Of a stretch of 64,000 nucleotides of DNA, positions 39,209 to 46,205 are shown piece by piece (within the stretch, counting starts at the first letter, position 1; each line of letters begins with the position of its first letter). The DNA is taken from positions 1,629,127 to 1,693,126 of the forward strand of contig NZ_CP142850.1 of assembly GCF_036287235.1 (NCBI RefSeq), in the 5' to 3' direction. A program made the translations under genes and the position numbers. The notes under the pieces are model-generated. The model made no database searches. It was not told the DNA's origin and saw nothing but the letters and a program-made list of their open reading frames with translations. This DNA comes from Exiguobacterium sp. 9-2. GTDB lineage: Bacteria; Bacillota; Bacilli; Exiguobacteriales; Exiguobacteriaceae.

Positions 39209-40807
39209 TTAATATGTCTTTTCCAACTCATTTGCCCAAACTTCGATTTGACCTTCTAGGAACGCCATCAACTCCTTCAGTTCCGCATCACTTGGTAAGA
39301 AAGATACACCCGCTCTCGCATAGACGTCTTGAACCGGATGGGTTTGACTAAGCGCCAAGGCTGCGATGAAGTCTTTCAGCGTTTGGTCAGGGTCTTTCGT
39401 GAAACGATGATACAACTGAAGAGCGGCAATCTGAGCAATCGCGTACTCGATGTAATAAAACGGCGTCTCAAAGAGATGGATGACACTCATCCATTCGTGG
39501 CCTTTCCAATCGGATGTTTCCGACCAATCAATGACGTCCGTATCGTATGATTCTCGGAGATAGGCATAATAGGCATGTCGTTCTTTTGGATCATGATCGG
39601 GGTGAGTATAGAGCCATGATTGAAAACGATCGACGATGATCGTCTCGGGTAAGAACTCAACCATGGAACGCATCTGTTCGAGTTTTGCCCGGGCAACGTC
39701 TTTTTTATCTGGAATCACCTGATGCCATTCGTTCATCGTCAACAACTCGAGCGACATGGCAGCAAATTCCCCTACTTCGAGCGGAATCGGTTGCAGTCCG
39801 TCGTATGTTTCTTTCATCGCATCATGATGGACGGCATGGCCGATCTCATGCATGAAGATGACAAGATCATCAAACGTATCGATGCGATTCATGAATAAGA
39901 ACGATTGTTGTTCGACCGGTAAATACTCACAAAACCCTCCGCCAGCTTTGTTCGACCGGGCACCGATATCGAGATGATTCCTATGTCGCATTTCTTTTAA
40001 TACGTCCGCAAAGTATGGATGCACGCTCTCGAGAATTGCTTGTGCCTTGTCTAAGAATGAAGTGTCAGAACCGGTCGCGTGATGATCAATCTGTGTATAG
40101 GCCGATTGCCGGACGTCCCACGGATGGAGCACCTGTTTGCCGAGAAACGTTTGTTGTTCGCGCTGAAATCGCCGTTTGACCGGTAGAAAGTCGGATTGAA
40201 TGATAGTGGCGTAATGATTGACATCTTGACTCGTATAATCGACGCGTCCGAGTTCTACAAAAGCTAGTTCCTCGTATCCGATCTTACCACTTGCAGTGGC
40301 ACGCGCTTGTCGTAAATCAACGAGTCGTGAAAACAACGGTTGAATGACGGATTCTTTCATGCGGAACGCTTCCTCAATCGATAAGAGCGCTTGTTTTCGA
40401 GTGGATTCATCCGCGTCAAATAAAGCAGCATGAAGATCGGAAACCGACTCTCCCGATTTTGTCAGCATCGTCGCCTCAATCCGGAGATAGTCTTGAATAA
40501 GACAAGCTTCCTCCTCTGTCGCACTTGTTGCTCTGAGTGATTGTTCAAAACGTGCTCTCGTTCGAAGTGTGACGTCATCGCGCGAGACGAGATCCATTTT
40601 TACGGAACGTCTCAACGTATCGAGCTTATCCGATAGCTGCTGACGCCCTTGTTCGTATTCAGAAGTGGTACCGAGGTCTGTAACGTCCTGGAGATACGCG
40701 ATTTTTTGTTTGAGCAATGTCTCTTCCATTTGGAGAATCGAAGCGATTCGATGCGCAACATCCTTATCATTATAAAAAATATCATTTACAGGTGACTGAG
40801 ATTTCAT
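39209..40807 (-). CDS. M3 family oligoendopeptidase
   Basis: A 532-residue cytosolic zinc metallopeptidase of the M3 family (PepF/oligoendopeptidase type). The zinc motif HEIGH is at residues 320-324 (FMHEIGHAVHHDA), with the third ligand in the E that follows around residue 347. It degrades short peptides. The ATG at 40807 follows an in-frame stop, and the nearest AAAGGAG lies 15 nt upstream, an unusually long spacing. No signal peptide. Confidence 0.87.
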   Translation of the reverse strand: MKSQSPVNDIFYNDKDVAHRIASILQMEETLLKQKIAYLQDVTDLGTTSEYEQGRQQLSDKLDTLRRSVKMDLVSRDDVTLRTRARFEQSLRATSATEEEACLIQDYLRIEATMLTKSGESVSDLHAALFDADESTRKQALLSIEEAFRMKESVIQPLFSRLVDLRQARATASGKIGYEELAFVELGRVDYTSQDVNHYATIIQSDFLPVKRRFQREQQTFLGKQVLHPWDVRQSAYTQIDHHATGSDTSFLDKAQAILESVHPYFADVLKEMRHRNHLDIGARSNKAGGGFCEYLPVEQQSFLFMNRIDTFDDLVIFMHEIGHAVHHDAMKETYDGLQPIPLEVGEFAAMSLELLTMNEWHQVIPDKKDVARAKLEQMRSMVEFLPETIIVDRFQSWLYTHPDHDPKERHAYYAYLRESYDTDVIDWSETSDWKGHEWMSVIHLFETPFYYIEYAIAQIAALQLYHRFTKDPDQTLKDFIAALALSQTHPVQDVYARAGVSFLPSDAELKELMAFLEGQIEVWANELEKTY

Positions 40808-40884
40808 CGACGGATTTCACATCTCCTTTCAACTTATTCCAGTATACAGTTTATGCCAACGATATGATCATTTTACGAATAAAT

Positions 40885-40945
40885 GACTATTATGTTGTCT
40901 TTTTTGACTATTATCGTTGTCAAAAAGACTATGATAAGTTACATT
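40885..40945 (+). promoter_or_regulatory. XRE promoter with 21-bp repeated operators
   Basis: GACTATKAT occurs at 40885, 40906 and 40927, exactly 21 bp apart, i.e. on the same face of the helix. TTTTTGAC-N10-GTCAAAAA (40901-40926) forms a perfect inverted repeat that spans the middle copy. A sigma-A promoter TTGTCA (40917-40922), 17-nt spacer, TACATT (40940-40945) overlaps it. Confidence 0.75.
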
Positions 40946-40966
40946 ATATAGGAGGTGAATCCCTAT

Positions 40967-41173
40967 ATGAAATCCCGTTTAAAAGAATTACGTGCTCGCC
41001 ACGGATGGAATCAGTCTGAACTGGCACGGCGCGCGAACATTTCGCGCCAGACGATCAGCTTAATCGAACGCGAAGAATTCATGCCGTCGCTACTGATCGC
41101 CGTCAAAATTTCTCGTGTGTTTGATACACCGCTAGAAGACATCTTTTATTTCGATGAGGAGGAATTAACATGA
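40967..41173 (+). CDS. XRE family small transcriptional regulator
   Basis: A 68-residue HTH-only protein (SRLKELRARHGWNQSELARR then NISRQTISLIEREE), with the usual end FDTPLEDIFYFDEEE. The ATG at 40967 is 11 nt from GGAGG; GTG 40955 is within that site. It overlaps the DUF3169 gene's start by 4 bp, so regulator and membrane protein are co-made. Autoregulation through the repeated operator is likely. Confidence 0.85.
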   Translation: MKSRLKELRARHGWNQSELARRANISRQTISLIEREEFMPSLLIAVKISRVFDTPLEDIFYFDEEELT

Positions 41174-41868
41174 ACAAGGAAGCAGGCAAGGTCATCATCG
41201 CAGCTTTACTCGGTTTCATTAGCAGTTATTTCGTCATGTTTGTCCTCAAAAATACCAATTTGTCACAGTTTGAACGATCGCTCTATCTTGATTACATATT
41301 CACTGGTCTTTTCGTTATCTTGACGATCTTGACTCTCAGTTACGTCGTACGCTATTTACAAATTCGTCAATTGACTCGACGATCCGTTTCTTCCGACGAA
41401 GAGGACGCGATTGACGATCAAGTGAATCGCTACTATGCGGACGGCATGATGATCGTGCAGTTCTCCAATCTCCTCAGTATCGGGCTCGCTTCTTTTAGCA
41501 TCATTGAAAACCAGTTCGGTCTTCATTTGATACTGAGCGGATTCTTTTTCGTCATCAGTTGTATTGCCTCGATTTATTTTCTCAATCTTATGCGCCAGAT
41601 CTATCCCAACCGCTATTTCCCAAAATATTCGGAAAAGAACTATGCTGAAAAGCTATTCGCTGCCTCAGATGACGGAGAACGTCACGTCATGTTCGAAGGT
41701 CTGATTCGGTCACAGTCCCTGTTACAATTTTTATTGATGGGTATCATTGTCGTATTAGTCGTGTATTCGTATGAGACCGGTCAATCTCAGATCTTTGCAA
41801 TCAGCTTATTGATTATCGCCTTGATCTGGAGCAACGCAAAATATTTTCTCCATGTACGCAATCGCTAA
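41170..41868 (+). CDS. DUF3169 family membrane protein
   Basis: A 232-residue protein with about six membrane segments and family features such as EERTRRSVSSDEEDAIDDQ-like loop (I see RSVSSDEEDAIDDQVNRYYA) and LMRQIYPNRYFPKYSEKNY. DUF3169 proteins typically follow a small XRE gene in Bacillales, as here. Function unknown; possibly a membrane stress responder or bacteriocin-immunity-like protein. Confidence 0.82.
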   Translation: MNKEAGKVIIAALLGFISSYFVMFVLKNTNLSQFERSLYLDYIFTGLFVILTILTLSYVVRYLQIRQLTRRSVSSDEEDAIDDQVNRYYADGMMIVQFSNLLSIGLASFSIIENQFGLHLILSGFFFVISCIASIYFLNLMRQIYPNRYFPKYSEKNYAEKLFAASDDGERHVMFEGLIRSQSLLQFLLMGIIVVLVVYSYETGQSQIFAISLLIIALIWSNAKYFLHVRNR

Positions 41869-41906
41869 AAAGGAGCATTCAGTCAATCGACTGGATGCTC
41901 CTTTAC
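41869..41906. terminator. Rho-independent terminator
   Basis: AAGGAGCAT (41870-41878) pairs with ATGCTCCTT (41895-41903), with further inner pairing of TCAGT and ACTGG. The stem contains the stop-adjacent bases of the DUF3169 gene and precedes the end of a minus-strand small protein gene. Confidence 0.85.
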
Positions 41907-45590: not shown

Positions 45591-45944
45591 TCAAATCCGT
45601 CGATTGACAAACCATAATGCGATTGGAAAGAACAAGATTTGTCCTCCTAATGCAAGTAATAAAGCAAATTGAATGTCTTGAATGACCGACAGATTAACGA
45701 GTACCAAAATCAAGTAAAGATAACCGATACTAATTAAATAGGCGATATGTCCACTACGTATTTTGACCTCGTTTTGCCGCTCATCATACGGTTCGTCCGG
45801 TGAGAAACTCACCGCTGTGATGCGTGAGGCAATACCTGCTAAAATCAGGACGATACCAAGCATTTTCATTTCTGGGATCTCCATCGTCATGTATATCCCT
45901 ATTCCAATTAACGCAAGATCCAACAATATATTTAATCGCTTCAT
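45591..45944 (-). CDS. DUF2178-like membrane protein
   Basis: A 117-residue protein with four membrane segments. The central SPDEPYDERQNEVKIRSGHIAY fits the DERQ-type motif of DUF2178-like proteins. It overlaps the XRE regulator gene's stop by 4 bp. Function unknown; regulator/membrane protein pairs of this type are often poorly understood. Confidence 0.72.
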   Translation of the reverse strand: MKRLNILLDLALIGIGIYMTMEIPEMKMLGIVLILAGIASRITAVSFSPDEPYDERQNEVKIRSGHIAYLISIGYLYLILVLVNLSVIQDIQFALLLALGGQILFFPIALWFVNRRI

Positions 45945-46156
45945 TCTATTCCCTCCTCGTTCGTTCGATTCGGTGTAAAGATGTCTTCGATTCGCCGTTC
46001 AAACAGATCAGCTAGTGAAAACGCGAGGTCGAGTGACGGATTATACCGCTCTTTTTCGATGGAAATGACCGTCTGACGCGACACGTTCAATCGTTTTGCC
46101 AGTTCGCCTTGCGACCAACCTCGTTCTTCGCGCATCTCCTTGACCTTATTTTTCAT
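45941..46156 (-). CDS. XRE family small transcriptional regulator
   Basis: A 71-residue HTH protein: VKEMREERGWSQGELAKRLN then VSRQTVISIEKER, ending FERRIEDIFTPNR. ATG 46156 has GAGGTGA 4 nt upstream. Its promoter (TTGACA and TATAGT, 18-nt spacing) is at 46176-46205, only about 15 nt from the start codon. It is coupled to the DUF2178-like gene. Confidence 0.87.
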   Translation of the reverse strand: MKNKVKEMREERGWSQGELAKRLNVSRQTVISIEKERYNPSLDLAFSLADLFERRIEDIFTPNRTNEEGIE

Positions 46157-46175
46157 GATTTCACCTCGTAGTCCC

Positions 46176-46205
46176 ACTATATGTAAATAACATACCACCT
46201 GTCAA
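46176..46205 (-). promoter_or_regulatory. XRE promoter
   Basis: Consensus TTGACA (46205-46200) and TATAGT (46181-46176) on the minus strand with an 18-nt spacer. A strong sigma-A promoter, so repression rather than activation is expected. Confidence 0.8.

Follow-up and report, generated by a model that had tools for sequence, protein, structure and literature searches.

The window analysed here, a 64,000-nucleotide stretch of the Exiguobacterium sp. 9-2 genome, contains three regularly spaced repeats that very probably form the operator of an AyrR-type autorepressor acting on an ayrR-ayrA operon, in which stress sensed by AyrA would derepress the genes. This reading draws on the sites themselves, their 21-bp spacing, their conservation, their overlap with the promoter consensus, and their occurrence as a single copy per genome.

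The 9-mer GACTATKAT occurs as GACTATTAT at positions 40885–40893 and again at 40906–40914, and as GACTATGAT at 40927–40935, with start-to-start distances of 21 and 21 bp. The initial annotation of this region had described three copies at exactly 21 bp, with a perfect inverted repeat in the middle that overlaps the -35 element, and all of this was borne out: the copies start at 40885, 40906, and 40927, the arms TTTTTGAC (40901–40908) and GTCAAAAA (40919–40926) are 100% complementary across an N10 spacer (whole repeat 40901–40926), and the -35 element TTGTCA (40917–40922) lies within this repeat. The exact doublet GACTATKAT-N12-GACTATKAT matched the window only twice, at the overlapping pairs within the triplet, and was likewise confined to the triplet in the 3.06-Mb genome. 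With three mismatches allowed, the expectation in the window was 0.16 and none of 100 shuffles reached 3, while genome-wide matches at this tolerance were near the level of a reversed-pattern control. The triplet is a real feature and not a product of chance, as the comparisons across loci given below also indicate.

Each functional unit is a dyad of 18 bp, TGAC-N10-GTCA, with the 9-mer as its left part. Three such sites are present on the plus strand: the upstream operator O1 (TGACTATTATGTTGTCTT, 40884–40901), with a strong left half and a degenerate right half; the central operator O2 (TGACTATTATCGTTGTCA, 40905–40922), located inside the perfect repeat; and the promoter-overlapping operator O3 (AGACTATGATAAGTTACA, 40926–40943), delimited by the window sequence together with cross-locus comparison. 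The right halves of both O1 and O3 are the weaker ones in the window.

The right halves of the two downstream sites coincide with a promoter. A consensus scan identified a sigma-A-like pair overlapping the repeat on the plus strand, comprising the TTGTCA -35 element, which is the right half of O2, a 17-bp spacer, and a TACATT -10 element (40940–40945), which is the right half of O3. Cross-locus comparison supported the latter, with a TACAAT-like -10 (≤1 mismatch) found 17 bp downstream of the -35 in 34 of 52 distinct loci, so that the conserved promoter TTGTCA-17-TACAAT corresponds to the right halves of O2 and O3 across loci. An alternative -35, TTGACT (40904–40909), was rejected as it lacks a conserved -10 at 17 bp. 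Given this arrangement, binding at O2 and O3 should block RNA polymerase. Transcription is predicted to start at ~40951–40953, within the ribosome-binding site (AGGAGGTG, 40950–40957, plus strand), which would imply a very short leader; with the predicted start this close to the ribosome-binding site, the promoter may have been assigned wrongly.

The gene following this promoter (40967–41173, plus strand, ATG start at 40967) encodes a 68 a.a. XRE/Cro-like repressor (HTH_3, E = 7.5e-16) that aligns with AyrR-type proteins and is 67% identical to a staphylococcal one. It shares an ATGA overlap at 41170 with the next gene (41170–41868, plus strand), which encodes a 232 a.a. DUF3169 membrane protein of the AyrA type (PF11368, E = 2.1e-15) with six transmembrane-like segments by hydropathy. 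The loop between TM4 and TM5 carries DDGE, a version of the D-E(a/g)E motif with E changed to D in the second position; across 91 sequences, the D of this motif is invariant (100%) and the last E nearly so (99%). Together, XRE and DUF3169 are the AyrR-AyrA pair described in Staphylococcus aureus, an identity that the initial annotation had not recognized. An inverted repeat (ggagcattcagtcaatcgactggatgctcc, 41873–41903, plus strand), also present in a genome without the operon (G001), is the probable operon terminator. No AyrB/AyrC ABC-transporter genes follow DUF3169 in the window, the next genes on the strand encoding a 60 a.a. CxxC protein (42163) and an epimerase-like protein (42352). A second small XRE gene followed by a 117 a.a. 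putative membrane protein lies on the minus strand (45591–46198); this XRE shares 48% identity with the first across 61 a.a., and no TGAC operator was found at the pair.

Within Exiguobacterium, the XRE-DUF3169 pair is present in 11 of 19 genomes, all 11 of which keep the central site TTTTGACTATTATNRTTGTCA, the downstream GAC, and TTACA, even where the DUF3169 protein of the carrier is only 37–38% identical. A 24-bp O2 pattern was found in one place per genome in all 11 carriers and in none of the eight non-carriers. Further targets in the genome were considered and rejected, given that O2 matches at three mismatches were few, with many common to non-carriers, and the 24-bp pattern marks a single place per genome. 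The G001 genome (L270) provides a natural empty site, where the operator, XRE, and DUF3169 are missing together as one block, the gap being bounded by the promoter region of a divergent peptidase gene and the conserved terminator. The G016 genome (L010) has an O1–O2 spacing of 20 bp through a one-base deletion. The region in L060, from a second genus of the family, reads TGACTATATGATTGTTCA-ttt-TGACAAATATAATTGTCA-ttt-TGATTATTATCATTTACA, which corresponds to three 18-bp sites with 3-bp gaps.

Beyond the family, loci were collected in named genomes by protein similarity alone (HMM of the XRE protein), giving 80 loci from ~30 genera, with DUF3169 downstream of XRE in 78 and an O2 match at ≥14 of 15 positions in 74. 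After removal of near-duplicates, 53 distinct upstream regions remained, and TGAC occurred at exactly -21 from O2 (the left half of O1) in 35 of these and at +21 in 18, but only once at an offset other than these. No offset exceeded 2 counts when the upstream flanks were shuffled. Stricter clustering to 20 upstream regions gave 11 at -21 and 7 at +21. Information content was ~0.05 bit in flanking columns, 2.7–3.0 bits at the half-site G and C of O2, and 1.8–2.0 bits at those of O1, and the consensus was aTGACaA.taTa.tt.tcaTTTTGACaAaTATA.TTGTCAAAATGA.aAa.ATa.ttTAcAaT. The layout of three sites at 21 bp was found in Exiguobacterium and the second genus of its family, Staphylococcaceae, Bacillaceae, and Planococcaceae, and, with changed half-sites, in Paenibacillaceae. 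Conservation of the repeats at orthologous loci was the point on which the initial annotation had said its claim could fail; the comparison was run and the repeats are conserved across ~30 genera, lending strong support to their assignment as the operator of the adjacent XRE protein. The recurrence of the same spacing upstream of the same gene pair in so many genera points to a real on/off switch of a known kind.

Not every component of the triplet is kept. Many species have a poor left half of O3, and about one third of loci, including an S. aureus-like one (L289), lack O1, suggesting that three sites are not always needed. A search immediately upstream of the repressor gene in Streptococcus-like loci gave no TGAC operator. 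A nearby ABC ATPase was detected in only 6 of the 80 loci by a crude motif scan. We also noted three loci (L068–L070) in which a related XRE lies beside a weak DUF3169 match with a different palindrome, TTTACATTATGTAAAG.

In Paenibacillaceae, the sites of most loci are TGTA-N10-TACA, with the 21-bp register unchanged. Among 152 typed loci, TGAC-type repressors have Ser at residue 31 in 120 of 121 (one Phe), and TGTA-type repressors have Ala in 31 of 31; residue 31 is predicted to lie in the recognition helix, and positions 23 and 39 likewise separate the two groups. The TGTA/Ala31 loci, which comprise Paenibacillaceae and related AyrR loci, are L074–L094, L109, L110, L113, and L294–L312. De-duplication left only seven distinct TGTA upstream regions, and some genomes were typed twice via different locus ids, so these counts reflect few independent events. 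The two groups are also partly confounded by ancestry, though Paenibacillaceae contain both types: L315 and L316 combine Ser31 with TGAC sites, and L313 and L314 combine Ser31 with hybrid sites. It is possible, and we put this forward tentatively, that a same-face array at 21 bp held by dimer-dimer contact is a conserved property of AyrR across Bacillales that has survived the change from TGAC to TGTA with Ser31 to Ala31, and that outside staphylococci the switch controls only itself, with DUF3169 as both sensor and effector of membrane stress.

In the mechanism we propose, XRE binding, repression, cooperativity, and the inducing signal are carried over from the S. aureus system or deduced from geometry. 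Dimers of the 68-residue XRE protein would bind the three 18-bp TGAC-N10-GTCA sites, and as these lie 21 bp apart (two helical turns), neighboring dimers would sit on the same face of the DNA with 3 bp between sites. When occupied, O2 would cover the -35 element and O3 would cover the -10 element together with the spacer, excluding RNA polymerase, while O1, outside the promoter core, would most likely help to load or hold O2 via contact between neighboring dimers. The ayrR-ayrA operon itself appears to be the only target in the genome. DUF3169 (AyrA) would then sense membrane or secretion stress, leading to the release of AyrR and derepression of the operon.

The spacing could instead be a by-product of promoter geometry, in which half-sites were recruited from the -35 and -10 elements and dimers make no contact. 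With a 17-bp spacer, exactly 21 bp separate the -35 GTCA from the -10 TACA, and this would by itself fix the O2–O3 distance. Cro-sized proteins often bind without cooperativity. We consider the by-product account rather unlikely, given that O1 lies outside the promoter core and still keeps its register, at exactly -21 in 35 of the 53 distinct loci and at -20 or -22 in none, and that the register persists where the half-sites have changed to TGTA. The position of O1 favors contact between neighboring dimers on the same face as the better explanation of the pitch, and the cooperative, one-face binding that the initial annotation predicted for the XRE protein would be in keeping with the conserved 21-bp spacing, especially for O1.

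A divergent M3-family oligopeptidase gene (39209–40807, minus strand) shares its intergenic region with XRE, and M3 is divergent in most Exiguobacterium carriers, raising the question of whether the sites regulate this gene, or both genes as in the lambda OR region. Enzymes that digest signal peptides are among the relatives of M3 peptidases, a kinship that would fit a secretion-stress circuit. The two features dissociate, however: G001 retains the peptidase with its promoter-like TATACT but has neither operator nor XRE, while the locus of the carrier G014 lacks such a peptidase. In other genera the upstream genes are unrelated, and O1 lies ~50–67 bp upstream of the predicted M3 start site. 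The peptidase was therefore rejected as the operator target, and its regulation by these sites is improbable. Binding by a different regulator, or retention of AT-rich promoter sequence by common descent, would suit an AT-rich region that overlaps a promoter consensus, but is most improbable given that conservation is concentrated on the half-site G and C, that the site occurs solely beside XRE-DUF3169 in the 19 genomes, and that residues of the adjacent XRE protein change along with the site sequence.

While the regulatory pair itself is known, we did not find the conserved operator layout described in the part of the literature that was accessible. The autorepressor reading supplies a sequence definition of the AyrR operator, where the accessible papers speak only of a putative binding site, and allows AyrR targets to be listed in any genome; for Exiguobacterium, this list has a single entry per genome and so brings into sharper focus the question of what AyrRA does in the absence of AyrBC. 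Both cooperativity and specificity can be tested directly by way of the conserved 21-bp pitch and the TGAC/TGTA switch.

The closest known system is the S. aureus ayrRABC (cro/cI) operon, in which AyrR represses the operon by binding upstream of its own gene, and AyrA is needed for induction by uncleaved preproteins with stable signal peptides (Craney and Romesberg, PMC5727409). Repression, and derepression via AyrA upon signal-peptidase inhibition, have been demonstrated for S. aureus only (PMC5727409). Like the window, this operon encodes a ~67 a.a. XRE protein followed by a six-TM DUF3169 protein with the D-E(a/g)E motif, and its repressor acts upstream of its own gene, as is predicted for the window; unlike it, the window has no AyrBC transporter genes, and so the output differs. 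In S. aureus, cis mutations at -62 (G to A) and -68/-67 (AG to TA) have been linked to signal-peptidase-inhibitor resistance, with the wild-type repressor failing to complement the -62 change (Morisaki et al., PMC5013292). The locus L289 was assigned as S. aureus-like and staphylococcal by matching every published landmark: the promoter has G at -62, AG at -68/-67, and AGGAGT with G at -14, and the genes comprise a 67 a.a. repressor with R11/E34/N53 in a four-gene operon. At this locus, position -62 falls on the G of the O2 TGAC, with -68/-67 just to its left, such that the published repression-lifting mutations would map onto or beside the central site, fitting resistance-linked promoter changes onto the AyrR operator. 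L289 also shares with the window the central TGAC-N10-GTCA, its overlap with the -35 element, and O3 at +21, whereas O1, well formed in the window, is not evident there.

The second-best solved match to the window XRE protein was CylR2 (1utx, a 66 a.a. XRE protein; E = 1.6e-11), which, together with the small membrane protein CylR1, has been proposed to act as a two-component-like switch that involves no phosphorelay in Enterococcus faecalis (PMC3709268). Both systems pair a small XRE protein with a membrane protein; however, CylR1 has three predicted TM helices, and the target is the cytolysin operon and not only the pair itself. The classical three-site analogue is the lambda OR region, with adjacent operators for a small HTH dimer that overlap promoter elements. 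The lambda sites lie ~23–24 bp apart and serve two divergent promoters, whereas those in the window are spaced at exactly 21 bp and serve one clear promoter.
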